23,250 nucleotides of DNA from Deltaproteobacteria bacterium. GTDB lineage: Bacteria > Desulfobacterota > Desulfobacteria > Desulfobacterales > Desulfobacteraceae. The notes under the pieces were generated by a model that was not told the DNA's origin, did no database searches, and saw only the letters and a program-made list of their open reading frames with translations. The stretch spans positions 1-23,250 of the forward strand of contig JAFCZY010000003.1 of assembly GCA_019314105.1 (NCBI GenBank), in the 5' to 3' direction. The translations under genes were made by a program, and so were the position numbers. Of this stretch, positions 5,473 to 22,616 are shown in pieces. Each line of letters starts with the position of its first letter. The stretch's first letter is position 1.

Positions 5473-6282
5473 ATGCAAATACTAAGGTTTGAAAGTGATG
5501 ACAATAAAATCTATACGGGGTGTGATTTTGAGGATGACAGCGCATCTATTCTTGAAGGAGATATTTATACTGATTTTTCTAATACAGGGAAAAGAAAATC
5601 GGTTAAAAAAATTTTAACACCGATTTTACCCAGCGTTATTTTTTGTATCGGGCTAAATTATAGACTCCATGCCAAAGAGACCGGAAAGGAATTGCCAAAA
5701 TATCCAGTGGTATTTATGAAAAATTTGAGTGCGGCAGCAGCTCATCTGGATGAGATTAAAATTCCACCCTCCTGTGTAAAGATCCCGGAAGTGGATTATG
5801 AGGTCGAACTGGCTGTGATCATAAAAAAGAAGGCAAAGAATGTCTTGCCGGAAAATGCCCTTGATTATGTCCTGGGATATACCTGTGCCAATGATATCTC
5901 TGCCAGAAGATGGCAGATGCATGCTGGCGGTGGTCAATGGATAAAGGGTAAAAGTTTTGATACCTTCTGTCCCTTTGGCCCCTGGATGGTGACACCGGAT
6001 GAGCTGACGGATCCGAATAATCTTGATATTGAATGTGTATTAAATGGTAATACCATGCAGAAAAGTAATACCAATGATATGATTTTTTCAGTGCCTCAAA
6101 TTATTTCATATTTATCCGAGTCAGTCACTTTGTTGCCCGGAACCCTTATCTTGACCGGTACGCCAAGTGGCGTTGGGTTTGCCCGGAAACCGCCTGTTTA
6201 CCTTAGCCCGGGGGATGTGCTGGAAACAAAAGTTGATAAAATCGGCGTGTTGAAAAATTATGTAACACTTGAGGAAGCATAA
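5473..6282 (+). CDS. Fumarylacetoacetate hydrolase (FAH)-family protein
   Basis: A 269-residue protein of the FAH superfamily, which includes fumarylpyruvate hydrolases, acylpyruvases, oxaloacetate tautomerases/decarboxylases and HpcE-type enzymes. Family landmarks are FCIGLNYRLHAKETG, PVVFMKNLSAAAA, VDYEVELAVII (metal-binding Glu110 and Glu112), YTCANDISARRWQ (Asp141), KGKSFDTFCPFGPW and ILTGTPSGVGFARKPP. The acidic metal ligands and the GTPSGVG turn are intact, so a Mg-dependent enzyme is likely. The start has AGGAGA eight bases upstream. It stands alone, divergent from the rhomboid gene and convergent with the ZraP-like gene, so context does not choose among substrates. Confidence 0.88.
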   Translation: MQILRFESDDNKIYTGCDFEDDSASILEGDIYTDFSNTGKRKSVKKILTPILPSVIFCIGLNYRLHAKETGKELPKYPVVFMKNLSAAAAHLDEIKIPPSCVKIPEVDYEVELAVIIKKKAKNVLPENALDYVLGYTCANDISARRWQMHAGGGQWIKGKSFDTFCPFGPWMVTPDELTDPNNLDIECVLNGNTMQKSNTNDMIFSVPQIISYLSESVTLLPGTLILTGTPSGVGFARKPPVYLSPGDVLETKVDKIGVLKNYVTLEEA

Positions 6283-17825: not shown

Positions 17826-19649
17826 ATGGCTGCTCACACTCCGAGACTCCTGAATGCACTGGATGTTTTTGAAGATGGTATTTATATCATTAATGAGGAT
17901 TATACTGTTGAATACATGAATAAATTCATGAAAGAATTGTTTGGCGAAGGGGTCGGGAAGAAATGTCATGACGTATTGATCGGATCTGCTACCCCTTGCG
18001 ACTGGTGTAAATATGATGAGGTTTTTATTAATAATGAAACGCATCACAGTGAGGTCTATATTGAAGCCCTTGATAAAATATTTGTTCTGTCAGAGCTTCC
18101 GGTGGTCAATCAGGACGGAAGCAAATCAAAACTTTCCATATACCGAGATATCACTCACAATGTACTGCAGGAGGAGAAGCTAAAAGCCTCTAAAGCAAGT
18201 TATCAAAGACTTTTTACCCACGCTGGATGCGGGGTGTTTGTCAGCAGTAAAAAAGGGCGATTTTTAGACGTTAATCCCGCGTTGTTAAAAATGCTTGGGT
18301 ATCAGGATAAAGAAGAATTCCTTTCGCTTGATCTTGCAAAAGATGTTTATTTAAGCCCTGATGACAGGCGGAAGTACACTGACATTATAGAAAAAAAAGG
18401 TCGGGTTGTCGATTATGAAGTAAAGTGGAGAAGACGGGACGGGCATATCCTTCATATTCTTTTGACCAGTAATGTCCGGTATGATCCCAAAGGAGTGATC
18501 CTTGGTTATGAAGGGATTGTCGTCGATCAGACCCGAAGAAAAAAAAATGAAAACCAGATAAAAGAAGCCCATGATTTTCTGGATAAAATTATTTCACATT
18601 CTCCCAATGCTATTATGGTAATGGATATGAGAGGGATTATCAAATTGTGGAATCAGGGCGCTGAAGAAATCTTCGGGGTTAAATCCGCCCAGGTGATTGG
18701 GAAAATGAGTATTCAGCAGATTTTTTCAAAAAACGTGGTGGAAAAGATTACGGAAATGATGAGGGATGAAAAGTTCGGGGGGAAAGGTAAGTTGAATTCC
18801 TATTCATTGAATTTTAAAAAGGATGACGGTGAGCTGGTTGAAGGCAACCTCTCCGCCAGTATCCTTTATGATGAAAAAGGCAATGAGCTGGCAACGGTTG
18901 GGTTGTTTGTTGATTTAAAGGAACGTCTTCAGATCGAAAGAGACCTCAGTGCAGCAAGACAACATCTGCTTCAGTCAGAAAAACTGGCTGCCATGGGAAG
19001 GCTTACGTCTCAGATCGCACATGAAATGAACAATCCGCTGTTTGGTATTATGAATACCCTTGAATTGATGAAAACCGAAATTCCTCCTGAGAATAAAAGA
19101 CGGAAACTTCTGGATATGTCTTTGTCCGAGATTGAACGCCTGGCGGACATGCTGAAAAAAATGCTGTCGTTTTCAAAGCCGGATCAGGATAAGCGCAGCA
19201 AGATAAATATCAACGTGATCCTTGATGAGTTGATGCTGCTATATGAAAAACGGTTCAGAGAAAACAGTATAAAAGTTATATTTGATCTTGTGGAAAATCC
19301 AGGGAATATTTTTGCCTCCAGGGATCAATTGCGTCAGGTCTTTATCAATATGTTTTCCAATGCCATATATGCCATGCCGGATGGCGGCAACCTTGAGATA
19401 TCCACCCGGGTTATTTCAGGAAAGCTTTATATCATTATCAAGGATACGGGGACGGGTATAAAACCCGAACATATGAAAAAGATTTTTGATTCTTTTTTCA
19501 CCACCAAAAAAGAGAGCGTTCAGGGCGTTGGTTTGGGGCTTTCTGTCTGTTATGGCTTTATCAAGGATCATGACGGGGATATTACAGTTGAATCCCAGGA
19601 AGGACAATGGACAAAATTTTCCATTATGCTTCCCATTGTCGGTAAATAA
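17826..19649 (+). CDS. Soluble multi-PAS histidine kinase
   Basis: A 607-residue kinase without obvious membrane helices. PAS1 (about 8-110) contains a cysteine group, KKCHDVLIGSATPCDWCKYD (Cys47, Cys58, Cys61), a pattern seen in PAS domains that may sense redox state or bind a cofactor. PAS2 (about 128-240) starts YQRLFTHAGCGVFVSS, and PAS3 (about 252-370) has FLDKIISHSPNAIMVMDMRG. HisKA follows with His399 in SQIAHEMNNPLFGIMNT, then HATPase with NMFSNAIYAM, KDTGTGIKP, FDSFFTTKK and GVGLGLSVCYGF. All catalytic boxes are intact. There is no receiver in the protein; the HTH-receiver regulator begins 214 bases downstream and is the likely partner. Location next to the metF/hdr operon suggests that it senses cytoplasmic redox or C1 status, which is inference. 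Confidence 0.87.
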   Translation: MAAHTPRLLNALDVFEDGIYIINEDYTVEYMNKFMKELFGEGVGKKCHDVLIGSATPCDWCKYDEVFINNETHHSEVYIEALDKIFVLSELPVVNQDGSKSKLSIYRDITHNVLQEEKLKASKASYQRLFTHAGCGVFVSSKKGRFLDVNPALLKMLGYQDKEEFLSLDLAKDVYLSPDDRRKYTDIIEKKGRVVDYEVKWRRRDGHILHILLTSNVRYDPKGVILGYEGIVVDQTRRKKNENQIKEAHDFLDKIISHSPNAIMVMDMRGIIKLWNQGAEEIFGVKSAQVIGKMSIQQIFSKNVVEKITEMMRDEKFGGKGKLNSYSLNFKKDDGELVEGNLSASILYDEKGNELATVGLFVDLKERLQIERDLSAARQHLLQSEKLAAMGRLTSQIAHEMNNPLFGIMNTLELMKTEIPPENKRRKLLDMSLSEIERLADMLKKMLSFSKPDQDKRSKININVILDELMLLYEKRFRENSIKVIFDLVENPGNIFASRDQLRQVFINMFSNAIYAMPDGGNLEISTRVISGKLYIIIKDTGTGIKPEHMKKIFDSFFTTKKESVQGVGLGLSVCYGFIKDHDGDITVESQEGQWTKFSIMLPIVGK

Positions 19650-19759
19650 GTTTTAAAAAATAAAATTCTATTTGATCCATATCGTCATTGTATAGGGTGG
19701 TAGTCGTTACGATGCTTCAAGCCGTTCTGTGGTAGGGGAGTTGTTCTATATTGTAGGAA

Positions 19760-19832
19760 TAGTTATTATAGTTATTCTATTTATTTTTTTTCACTTGACA
19801 AGATATATTATATAGAATAACTATAATAACTA
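19760..19832. promoter_or_regulatory. 20-bp perfect inverted repeat flanking a -35 box
   Basis: TAGTTATTATAGTTATTCTA (19760-19779) is repeated as its exact reverse complement at 19813-19832, with 33 bases between. Each arm is itself two head-to-tail copies of TAGTTATT at a 9-base period, making four copies in all. A TTGACA lies in the loop (19795-19800) and a TATAAT inside the right arm (19822-19827), 21 bases apart, which is longer than a normal 17-base spacer. The structure sits 31 bases before the HTH-receiver start. It is most simply a two-dimer operator for the protein encoded downstream; a long RNA hairpin is the alternative. Confidence 0.72.
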
Positions 19833-19863
19833 AAGTTATGAAATCCCTAAAAAAGGAGGTGCT

Positions 19864-20436
19864 ATGGAAGACACGTTGACTGTATTCACCGCAAGCAAAT
19901 ACTGCAATGTTTCGTCTAAAACCATTATCAATTGGGTGGAGGCCGGTCATATTAAAGCGTATCGGACTGTTGGCGGCCATCGCAGGATAAAAAAATCTGA
20001 TCTTGAGACATTTATGCGAAGCCAGGGAATCCCGATTCCTGAAGAAAAGGATGAAGGTGCCAGAAAAAAGATTCTGGTCGTAGATGATGACATGATCATT
20101 GTTGAATCAATTGTACAGGCGCTGGAGGAAGATGAATTTGATTATGAGGTTCTTTCCGCTTCGGATGGCTTCGAAGCCGGGCTTCAGGTAAGTCATTTCC
20201 ATCCTGATCTTTTGATTCTGGATATTATGATGCCGGATATTAAAGGCTATGAAGTCTGTAAAAAAATTAAAACCAACGAGAAAACAAAAGACACTAAAAT
20301 TATCGTATTATCCGCATATCTGGATGATGATAAGTTTGCGCAGATGAAAGAATATGGTGCGGATATCTGTTTATCAAAGCCATTGCCCCTGTCCCAGCTC
20401 AAGGATGAAGTGGCCAACTTATTGGGATTAAAATAG
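19864..20436 (+). CDS. HTH (MerR/excisionase-type)-receiver response regulator
   Basis: A 190-residue regulator with inverted domain order. Residues about 5-52 are a MerR/excisionase-type winged helix: LTVFTASKYCNVSSKTIINW followed by VEAGHIKAYRTVGGHRRI and SDLETFM, the BldC/Xis-like helix-turn-helix plus wing. After a short linker comes a receiver (about 68-188) with LVVDDDM (Asp75 and Asp76 pocket), phosphorylation site Asp120 in LLILDIMMPD, and SKPLP near the end. Classical response regulators have the receiver first. The ATG has AAAAGGAGG in front. It heads the metF-hdr operon (next gene after 14 bases) and follows a large inverted repeat, so autoregulation and control of the operon are likely. 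Its kinase is probably the PAS kinase upstream. Confidence 0.85.
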   Translation: MEDTLTVFTASKYCNVSSKTIINWVEAGHIKAYRTVGGHRRIKKSDLETFMRSQGIPIPEEKDEGARKKILVVDDDMIIVESIVQALEEDEFDYEVLSASDGFEAGLQVSHFHPDLLILDIMMPDIKGYEVCKKIKTNEKTKDTKIIVLSAYLDDDKFAQMKEYGADICLSKPLPLSQLKDEVANLLGLK

Positions 20437-20450
20437 GAAGGAGGCAAATC

Positions 20451-21315
20451 ATGAATTTAAAGGAATCTTTGGAAAAAAAGAGATTTGTTGTAACATCCGA
20501 AGTACAGGTACCCCTCGGTGATGAAGAACCCGAGGCTATTATTGATAGCCTTAGCAGGGTAAAAGGCCGTGTGGACGGGGTATCTGTTTCGGAAATAGAA
20601 GAGTGACACCATCAAAACCTGCGGTCTTTTAAAAGAGAATAATTTGAATGCGATTTACCAAACCACTACAAGAGATAAAAATAGATTCCAATTGCAAAAA
20701 GATCTGGCCCTTGCCCATGAGACTGGTGTGGAAAATCTTCTGGTTTTTACGGAAGATTACAGGATTTCCGGGGATACGCTTCAGGAATCCATGTTTTTTC
20801 ATGTAGATTCAGGCAAACTGGCATCGGTTATGGATCATTTGAAACAAGGGGTGACAATTGAAGGAAAAGAGCTTGAAAACAAGATGGATTTTGTTCTGGG
20901 TTCCGGCATTGAAACACCCTGGGGGAAAAACATGCCCAAGCGCGGCATGGAAGAAATGGAAGATATGATGAATGTGGGCACAGGATATTTTTTGACAACC
21001 CCTATTTTTGATATTGATCAGTTTGCCAGGTTCATGAAGCAGGTTGAGCCTTTTCGTGTCCCTGTTATTGCTGAAGTTATGATTTTGAGGACAGCAGGGA
21101 TGGGCAAATTTTTGAATCGCCATTTTAAATCCGGGCTTGTCCCTGAATGGGTCATTCAAAAATTGATGAAAGCACCCAATAAAAAGAAAGCAAGTATGGA
21201 GCTTTTTGCCGATACGGTTAACAGCCTGAAAGATATCTGCCAGGGGGTTCATATCATTACTATTGGCGGTGTCGATAACCTGGTGGAATATATGAATACA
21301 GCCAAATTAAGATAA
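20451..21315 (+). pseudogene. metF: MetF-like methylene-tetrahydrofolate reductase, one-base frameshift
   Basis: ATG at 20451 (GGAGG seven bases upstream) begins MNLKESLEKKRFVVTSEVQV and stays in frame for 51 residues to TGA at 20604. In the +1 frame the protein continues without loss as SDTIKTCGLLKENNLNAIYQ, then TTTRDKNRFQLQKDL, the flavin-barrel MetF sequence, to TAA at 21315. Further MetF landmarks are NVGTGYFLTTPIFDIDQFAR, PVIAEVMIL, KFLNRHFKSGLVP and a final GVHIITIGG. Joined, it is about 287 residues, the normal MetF length. So there is one extra base (or two missing) around 20598-20604. It would reduce methylene-H4F to methyl-H4F, in the Wood-Ljungdahl pathway. In acetogens and sulfate reducers such genes sit with hdrABC, as here. 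The rest of the gene shows no decay, so sequencing error, recent mutation or programmed shift are all possible. Confidence 0.78.
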
Positions 21316-21329
21316 GGGAGAATTTTAAA

Positions 21330-22616
21330 ATGGCAGAGGCGATTAAAATTGATGAACTTGACATTGAGTTTAAAGATGAGGTTCTCGCAAAAGTGCCGGA
21401 TGCAAATTTTGATCTTTGCCTGACATGCGGAACCTGCACGGGAGGATGTGCTGCCTCGGAATTGTTTGATATGGATCCTCGAAAGCTTATTAGAATGTTA
21501 AATTTAGGGTTGGATGATGAAGTACTGAAAACAAACTGGAAATGGGTTTGCAGTATGTGTGGGCGATGCGTGGCAGCCTGTCCCATGAAAATTAATATCC
21601 CGGCGCTGATTTTTAATCTGCGTGCAAACGTTCCCAGGGGAAAACGTCCCAAAGGTATTCTGGGGTCATGTGATCAACATATTCGAACCGGCAGTGCCAT
21701 GGGGGCTGCAAAGGATGATTTTGAATTTACGGTATTGGATGTGGCCGAGGAAATCAGGGAAGATCATCCGGGATTTGAGGAATTACAGGTCTCAGTGGAC
21801 AGGGTTGGTGCCACAATGGTATTGAACCAGAATTCCAGGGAACCGGTTACCGAGCCCGAAGAAATGGGACCTTTATGGAAAATTCTTCACACAGTAGGTG
21901 CGGACTGGACGTATCCATCCGTAATGTGGGCCGGAGAAAATTATTGCATGTTCATGGCTGATAATGAGGGATGGAAATATATTATAGAGGAATTCGCTCA
22001 CCATGTAGACAATAATTTAAAAAGTCCCATTGTGGTCAATACCGAGTGAGGCCACTCCTATTTTGCGATCCTGGAAGGGTTGCGAAAATTTAAGATACCT
22101 CACAAGTTTGAACTGATCACCATCATTGAGCTGTATGCCCAGTGGATTAAAGAAGGTAAACTCAAAGTCAACTCTGACTGGAACAAAGATATCAAAGCCA
22201 AGTTTACAGTGCAGGACCCCTGCAATATCGGAAGAAAAAGCGGGTCCAATAAGATTGTAGATGATTTAAGGTTTGTTATTAAAACCGTTGTGGGCGAAGA
22301 AAATTTTATTGATACGGTTCCTAACCGGGATAACAACTATTGCTGCGGTGGTGGCGGCGGTGCGTTGCAGGCTGGATTTCCTGATCAGAGAAGGGCCTAT
22401 GGCAGAACAAAATTCAACCAGCTTGCGGCAACGGGTGCGACTTATGTGATCGCACCCTGCCATAATTGTCACGGTCAGATTGAAGATATTGGCGAATACT
22501 ATGGCGGCAAGTATCATGTGGTTCATTTATGGACAATCATCTGCCTTGCCATGGGCGTACTGGGTGAGGAAGAACGAACCTATCTTGGGCCGGATCTGGC
22601 TGAAGTGGGACTATAA
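21330..22616 (+). CDS. HdrC/HdrB-like Fe-S protein, probable selenoprotein (Sec240)
   Basis: One 428-residue protein read through an in-frame TGA at 22047-22049. The N-terminal HdrC-like part has two 4Fe-4S motifs: CLTCGTCTGGC (Cys30, 33, 36, 40) and CSMCGRCVAACP (Cys74, 77, 80, 84). The C-terminal HdrB-like part has a CCG domain: QDPCNIG (Cys298), NNYCCGGGGG (Cys338, 339) and APCHNC (Cys377, 380), the CX39CCX37CXXC pattern that binds the noncubane cluster. Between them is an earlier, degenerate cluster region ending PIVVNTE-UGA-GHSYFAIL, where related proteins have Cys before Gly-His. Coding similarity does not pause at the UGA, no start with ribosome site follows it, and a hairpin begins 11 bases after. 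The start at 21330 has GGGAG in front. It probably passes electrons between HdrA and a thiol or ferredoxin partner. Annotating it as two genes (21330-22049 and 22080-22616) would be an error. Confidence 0.82.
22061..22088 (+). promoter_or_regulatory. Bacterial SECIS-like hairpin after the in-frame UGA
   Basis: In RNA, UUUU then GCGAUCC (22061-22071) pairs with GGGUUGC, one bulged G, then AAAA (22077-22088), around the loop UGGAA. The stem is seven pairs (with two G-U) plus four A-U pairs. The loop starts 22 bases after the UGA and has G as its second base, both fitting bacterial SECIS elements recognised by SelB. Confidence 0.65.

Follow-up and report, generated by a model that had tools for sequence, protein, structure and literature searches.

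A selenocysteine-containing HdrD-type protein of a Desulfobacteraceae bacterium and its MetVF-Hdr operon setting

The window analysed here is a stretch of 23,250 nucleotides from a Deltaproteobacteria bacterium of the Desulfobacteraceae (assembly GCA_019314105.1, contig JAFCZY010000003.1, positions 1 to 23,250). It contains hdrD, a gene with an in-frame UGA codon, whose product joins HdrC-like and HdrB-like parts in one chain. hdrD encodes a genuine selenoprotein whose family is already known, and no earlier report of a selenocysteine (Sec) HdrD in a MetVF operon was found in the literature searched, figures, supplements, and most subscription papers being outside the search. The explanation that we favor as a whole, with a probability of about 0.75, is that the product is the Sec-containing HdrD-type subunit of an Hdr-type methylene-tetrahydrofolate (THF) reductase complex, together with HdrL, MvhD, MetV, and MetF.

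Selenocysteine codon and SECIS-like hairpin of hdrD

The frame of hdrD encodes one protein of 428 residues with a single internal UGA (U240, in NTE-U-GHSYF), as the first-pass annotation of this DNA had read it. TGA was found at codon 240 in all 45 genome-contig loci that reach the site; the other three of the 48 loci found (L053, L054, and L056) end short of it. The record titles of the UGA loci range from Desulfobacula, Desulfotignum, and Desulfospira to Desulfohalobiaceae and Desulfobulbaceae. At an E value of 1e-60, a match was present in 85 of the 86 family genomes searched. The best 50 rows (49 of the 86 genomes, E up to 4.1e-229) have exactly one in-frame TGA per match, its position being read for part of the loci. 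Among the matches listed below these 50, ones with and without TGA both occur.

Cysteine before the conserved Gly-His had been expected in related proteins, and it is indeed printed at position 240 in the best 120 of 3162 protein homologues; this count depends on the protein databases, which print C even where the source may hold U. Fifteen homologous genes without UGA were read from the DNA: the codon is TGC in 14 and TGT in one. The codon table comprised 88 distinct rows, of which L071-L073 (<45% identity) were excluded from the Sec and Cys counts; the Cys loci and the other Sec loci came from 40 stretches hand-picked from the genome-match list, which holds part of the matches. The genes for decoding UGA, which the first-pass annotation had proposed to look for, are all present in the genome, each above its cut-off: selB (340.7 bits), tRNA-Sec (selC; 76.5 bits), selA (603.7 bits), and selD (358 bits). 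The selD gene has one TGA inside. From these comparisons, residue 240 is almost certainly selenocysteine.

The hairpin reported in the first-pass annotation was also recovered. It starts 11 nucleotides past the UGA, with a minimum free energy of -15.5 kcal/mol and a z score of -2.4; three of 200 shuffled sequences did as well. In the RNA alignment of 69 of the 70 Sec rows (L079 was excluded), RNAalifold recovered the same 9-pair stem unprompted, and 94.4% of the cells pair in the stem. The number of cells changed on both sides was 43, compared with 13.2 in shuffles, none of 500 being as high. At the same place in the Cys genes (n=15), 68.1% of the cells pair, no better than shuffles. At least six of the seven core pairs are formed in 70 of 70 Sec rows and in five of 15 Cys rows (L113, L114, L117, L123, and L125). 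These five might retain SECIS (selenocysteine insertion sequence) remnants after a change from Sec to Cys, or might show chance pairs in a conserved coding stretch. As judged from the alignments, the RNA stem is kept in the UGA genes and has decayed in the Cys genes, and this comparison between genes backs the hairpin better than the folding of a single sequence. No match for the hairpin was found in Rfam; it is taken as a SECIS element because the UGA is conserved and the decoding genes are present.

None of the best 120 of the 3162 protein homologues exceeds 70% identity, despite the fact that DNA of 80-96% identity is common in genome contigs. This suggests that the genes of the MetF-linked Sec clade are cut by gene callers and seldom stand complete in the protein databases. 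It should be mentioned that the protein P0033 of Desulfotignum phosphitoxidans is named "oxidoreductase, selenocysteine-containing." In the locus matched to it (L116) the codon, at 5564 on the minus strand, is TGC, so that this name looks wrong.

Table 1. Positions of hdrD, its elements, and the neighboring genes in the window
Feature	Positions	Strand	Basis
hdrD, Sec-containing HdrC+HdrB fusion, 428 residues	21330..22616	+	translation, Pfam, NCBIfam, comparison of loci
UGA codon, Sec240 (NTE-U-GHSYF)	22047..22049	+	codon and protein alignments
Two 4Fe-4S motifs of the HdrC-like part: Cys30/33/36/40, Cys74/77/80/84	21417..21581	+	Pfam Fer4_8/Fer4_17, PDB HdrC chains
C-terminal CCG site, predicted noncubane ligands Cys298, 338, 339, 377, 380	22221..22469	+	Pfam CCG, HdrB and EtfD alignments
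His242 codon, aligned with EtfD His583	22053..22055	+	profile alignment to EtfD
SECIS-like hairpin, 12 bp, 3-nt apical loop, core 22064-22084	22061..22087	+	folding, shuffles, alignments
Regulator with HTH_17 and response-regulator receiver domains, 5' of metF1	19864..20436	+	Pfam
metF1, divergent MetF-like, PF02219 weak, frame broken near 20600	20451..21315	+	Pfam, alignment of relatives
hdrL 5' part, HdrA-type with GltD-like insert, gene cut by the contig end	22631..23250	+	NCBIfam, relatives

Protein architecture and the site of Sec240

In a single chain, the protein carries two 4Fe-4S motifs and, after them, a double CCG fold of the HdrB type (about residues 161-425), which is the arrangement of HdrD. 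The conservation of the ligands is directly observed: the first four cysteines (30/33/36/40) are present in 119 of 121 rows, the other two rows having gaps, and the second four (74/77/80/84) in all 121. The five cysteines of the C-terminal CCG site are invariant across the homologue alignment. The first-pass annotation had called the protein HdrB-like; this holds for the fold, and the protein is better described as an HdrD-type fusion of HdrC and HdrB, its best curated matches in NCBIfam being HmcF, TmcB, and DsrK. The scores for these families, 176 of 750, 172 of 735, and 115 of 400 bits, respectively, are far under the cut-offs, and identity with any of the three equivalogs was rejected.

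The position of Sec240 was compared with that of the cluster ligands in EtfD from Mycobacterium smegmatis (PDB 9ojn). According to the available text on that structure (PMC13083937), EtfD retains a linear [3Fe-4S] cluster (D1) with Cys503, Cys538, Cys581, and Cys584 as ligands, and a noncubane cluster (D2) with Cys637, Cys672, Cys673, Cys709, Cys712, and His583. In the profile alignment, the D2 cysteines are aligned with the five cysteines of the C-terminal CCG site of HdrD, H242 with His583, and U240 with Cys581. A GlcF-like profile gave the same register for residue 240. In contrast to the complete C-terminal set, the N-terminal set keeps only residue 240, as Sec: Cys538 and Cys584 correspond to W193 and S243, and Cys503 to an alanine. 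HdrD is thus not a two-cluster protein of the HdrB type by its ligands. Because only one of the four D1 ligands is left, the first cluster is probably gone. The first-pass annotation had placed the Sec at or next to the first cluster site; the site agrees with Cys581, whereas the cluster itself is probably absent. FadF and DgcB are also without the D1 cysteines, according to the same authors in the accessible part of their paper (PMC13083937).

In the predicted structure (input: the query and 53 of the 120 protein homologues), a helix starts just after residue 240, and likewise after Cys377. Sec240 probably occupies a vacated cluster site beside the noncubane cluster, where it would take part in thiol/disulfide or electron-relay chemistry. 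That it acts directly next to the noncubane cluster is a more tentative proposal, to which we give slightly less than an even chance.

Operon setting and alternative explanations

The gene order in the relatives is metF1-hdrD(Sec)-hdrL-mvhD(Sec)-metV-metF2. A cultured relative that has the operon is Desulfospira joergensenii DSM 10085 (L033). Directly 5' of hdrD, a divergent metF gene is present in every locus holding the DNA, both among the close loci (32 of 32) and among the whole-genome loci (11 of 11); the two sets overlap. A TGA codon stands in the mvhD gene 3' of hdrL wherever a locus covers it (28 of 28 close genome-contig loci; 11 of 11 whole-genome loci). In all seven genomes with longer stretches, mvhD is succeeded by metV and by another metF of the regular kind; the genes of an Hdr-type methylene-THF reductase (metV, metF, mvhD, hdrA, and hdrBC-like genes in one cluster) were found in seven of seven genomes. 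In a distant locus, L044, the order is different, and HdrD again comes after HdrL-MvhD-MetV-MetF. The product of hdrL has 1480 residues in the relative L012, including the GltD-like insert. In the genome of the window, a second contig (C108) starts inside hdrL and continues with mvhD, metV, and metF2, the last two matching PF12225 and PF02219. This means that the 3' part of hdrL, mvhD, metV, and metF2 exist in this genome. An acetyl-CoA synthase domain (PF03598) is present as well. The metF-hdr operon of the first-pass annotation therefore holds as a context, with two amendments: the upstream metF is broken in the window, and the gene that follows hdrD codes for HdrL, an HdrA-like protein carrying a GltD-like insert. 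On this gene content, a MetVF-HdrL-MvhD-HdrD complex is likely to exist.

The break in metF1 is a net deletion of 14 nucleotides, found in none of 11 aligned relatives; L012 has an intact version of 292 residues. A mutation of the strain and an assembly error are indistinguishable from the available sequence. Ahead of the operon, at 17826-20436, there is a PAS sensor histidine kinase gene followed by the gene of the HTH_17-receiver regulator. A copy of the regulator gene with 82-97% identity precedes metF in the relatives holding upstream DNA.

Some further observations concern MvhD. Its Sec lies in the context CCQY-U-AYAAGDLAG (L012, 10838-11281; L150, 300-749), which is also seen in the genome of the window, on C108. 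Two more hdrL-mvhD-metV-metF clusters are located on other contigs of this genome, C137 (L151) and C371 (L153); of the corresponding MvhD codons, one is TGT and one TGA. In the Cys-HdrD loci with MvhD nearby, MvhD also has Cys (9 of 9: L114, L116-L121, L125, and L126). In L047, L049, L051, and L055, HdrD has Sec but MvhD has Cys (4 of 4).

A quick tree was built from 110 rows, namely 52 with Sec, 55 with Cys, and 3 of the outgroup (18 close Sec rows were dropped and 40 of the 120 protein homologues used). It requires four changes between Sec and Cys, whose direction is unreadable, and the long outgroup branches make the base unsafe. These changes concern the MetF-linked Sec clade, to which the Cys rows P0002 and P0005 are sisters; a second, separate Sec clade (UGHVT/UGHEL and kin); the Sec rows L047, L051, and L055; and the Cys row L122, nested inside the second Sec clade. 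The genome of the window itself carries two more Sec HdrD paralogues, on contigs C291 and C339 (L127 and L128; 58-60% identical), with the motifs UGHVT and UGHEL. In their stretches (6763 of 8908 bases and all 3277 bases, respectively), no match to MetF, MetV, HdrL, or MvhD was found. The genome G057, which we take to be that of Desulfobacterium autotrophicum HRM2, has its Sec copy L140 in the UGHVT clade, not in the MetF-linked clade, among the matches listed for it (three in total).

Several points weigh against the explanation by a MetVF-Hdr complex with a Sec HdrD. The register of residue 240 is unsettled: against EtfD, hhalign and HMMER place it on the first Cys of the CxxC, and MAFFT on the second. 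Two of the five hairpin measures were not above shuffles, namely the pairs changed on both sides (5; 65/500 shuffles) and the further pair types (12; 122/500 shuffles). The covariation score (0.316, compared with a shuffled mean of 0.219, 0/500 being as high, and with 0.046-0.103 for slid partners) can be lifted above shuffles by the relatedness of the sequences alone. The Cys genes pair more at the place of the hairpin than with slid partners (35-50%). The metF1 of the window is broken. The operon genes of this genome are split over two contigs, and C147 is joined to C108 by inference from synteny. Finally, 14 of 14 whole-genome loci of the second Sec clade gave no match to MetF, MetV, HdrL, or MvhD, which indicates that Sec is not tied to folate chemistry.

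The last point fits an alternative explanation, in which the Sec HdrD is an ordinary member of a general HdrD/GlpC pool serving several HdrA-MvhD complexes and reduces DsrC or another disulfide, the adjacency of metF being regulatory. The Cys loci fit it as well: a MetF or MetV match was found in none of the 15, yet HdrA-type pieces in eight and MvhD in nine. In addition, the HmcF (L073) and TmcB (L072) of the same genome, both above their NCBIfam cut-offs, have E-C-G-H at the Sec site. This alternative seems nevertheless unlikely, since it does not agree with the clade of the window, in which MetF is adjacent in every locus holding the DNA, with the MetV-MetF2 pair after mvhD (7/7), or with L044, where HdrD still follows HdrL-MvhD-MetV-MetF in spite of the changed order.

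Expression of two proteins, an N-terminal one of 239 residues that stops at the UGA and a C-terminal one initiated at TTG 22080, is very improbable, even though a mechanical open reading frame begins at 22080 and GGAAGGG stands immediately before this TTG. In the 10 codons from the UGA to the TTG, the 43 relatives differ 4, 6, and 166 times at the first, second, and third codon positions, respectively, which means that the stretch is translated in the frame of hdrD. The separate start near 22080, which the first-pass annotation had named as a finding that could overturn its reading, is not conserved: TTG is present in 49 of the 70 Sec rows, and CTG, GTG, and GCG in 16, 4, and 1. The Cys homologues read through uninterrupted, and the second piece would be without the first half of the HdrB-like fold. 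That the UGA arose by sequencing error, or by a nonsense mutation that recently hit a Cys codon of an operon under decay, to which the deletion in the neighboring metF1 of this window only might point, is hardly credible, given the same UGA in 45/45 loci of many assemblies and the kept hairpin.

Known systems and proposed role

The Fe-S oxidoreductase (GlpC) selenoprotein family with the motif UGH is known from Deltaproteobacteria (PMC13188914 and PMC1794560, in the portions available). The finding is less new than the first-pass annotation implied: the family was already in print, and it is the operon setting that stands without a report found. Like this family, the product of hdrD is a COG0247-type protein that combines 4Fe-4S and CCG domains with the motif U-G-H. 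The likeness to the GlpC family (COG0247, PTHR43551) includes Sec right before Gly-His and clustering with hdrA/frhD. The operon described is glpC-hdrA-frhD-frhG-frhA (available text of PMC1794560), whereas here it is metF1-hdrD-hdrL-mvhD-metV-metF2. The accessible parts of two further sources count 47 such selenoproteins in 31 organisms (PMC5029168) and list the family among selenoproteins of largely uncharacterised function (PMC13188914). HdrD4 of Desulfobacterium autotrophicum HRM2 is likewise an HdrC+HdrB-type selenoprotein of a Desulfobacteraceae sulfate reducer (excerpt of PMC2702500). For Desulfococcus multivorans, the available part of PMC5109826 lists five Sec genes, none of them an HdrD. 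The HmcF and TmcB of the genome studied here have ECGH at the aligned place, with Cys where the product of hdrD carries Sec.

A fourth, Hdr-type methylene-THF reductase (MTHFR) consists of MetVF, HdrBCA, and MvhD, and the Moorella HdrA, of 162.8 kDa, has an NAD(P)H-binding GltD domain (PMC9430772, available text). Bifurcation has been proposed for this type (PMC5861303 and PMC6085437, in part), and in syntrophic Seep-SRB1g metF is located beside HdrABC (PMC10553843, in part). The MetVF-HdrBCA-MvhD complex of Moorella and Sporomusa shares MetV, MetF, and MvhD with the operon described here; a further common feature is an HdrA of roughly 1480 residues into which a GltD domain is inserted, as in Moorella (PMC9430772, in part). 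In contrast to that complex, one Sec fusion stands here for HdrB and HdrC, there is an extra divergent metF1, and MvhD contains Sec.

The following mechanism is the one that we favor for a complex of HdrL, MvhD, MetV, MetF, and the Sec HdrD. In Hdr families, electrons pass from HdrA through the HdrC clusters to the CCG clusters. In the present case, the UGA at codon 240 would be decoded by SelB and tRNA-Sec, aided by the downstream hairpin. At HdrL, whose insert binds NAD(P)H, electrons would be split or merged among NAD(P)H, ferredoxin, and the branch leading to HdrD. Within HdrD, they would then run via the two cubane clusters to the only noncubane cluster. Sec240, which is two residues from the predicted noncubane ligand His242, might act as a fast selenol, either in thiol/disulfide chemistry or in electron exchange with a partner; MetVF is one candidate for this partner, and a small dithiol like DsrC is another. 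The direction of the electrons, the link between HdrD and MetVF, and the partner of Sec240 are what we infer for this putative complex. In a complete oxidiser, where the pathway is reversed, the complex would reduce NAD(P)+ with electrons from the oxidation of both methyl-THF and ferredoxin; under autotrophic growth, its direction would be the opposite. A more speculative and rather less likely extension is a double-selenoprotein, electron-splitting MTHFR, in which Sec replaces a lost Fe-S cluster and faces the noncubane cluster, and which would cheapen the reverse Wood-Ljungdahl pathway in sulfate reducers.

The presence of Sec in both the HdrB-like subunit and MvhD provides a handle for selenium labelling and for Sec-to-Cys exchange tests. 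Furthermore, the alignment with EtfD gives the UGH motif of the family a possible structural rationale: U would mark the lost cluster ligand, and H would be a ligand of the cluster that remains.
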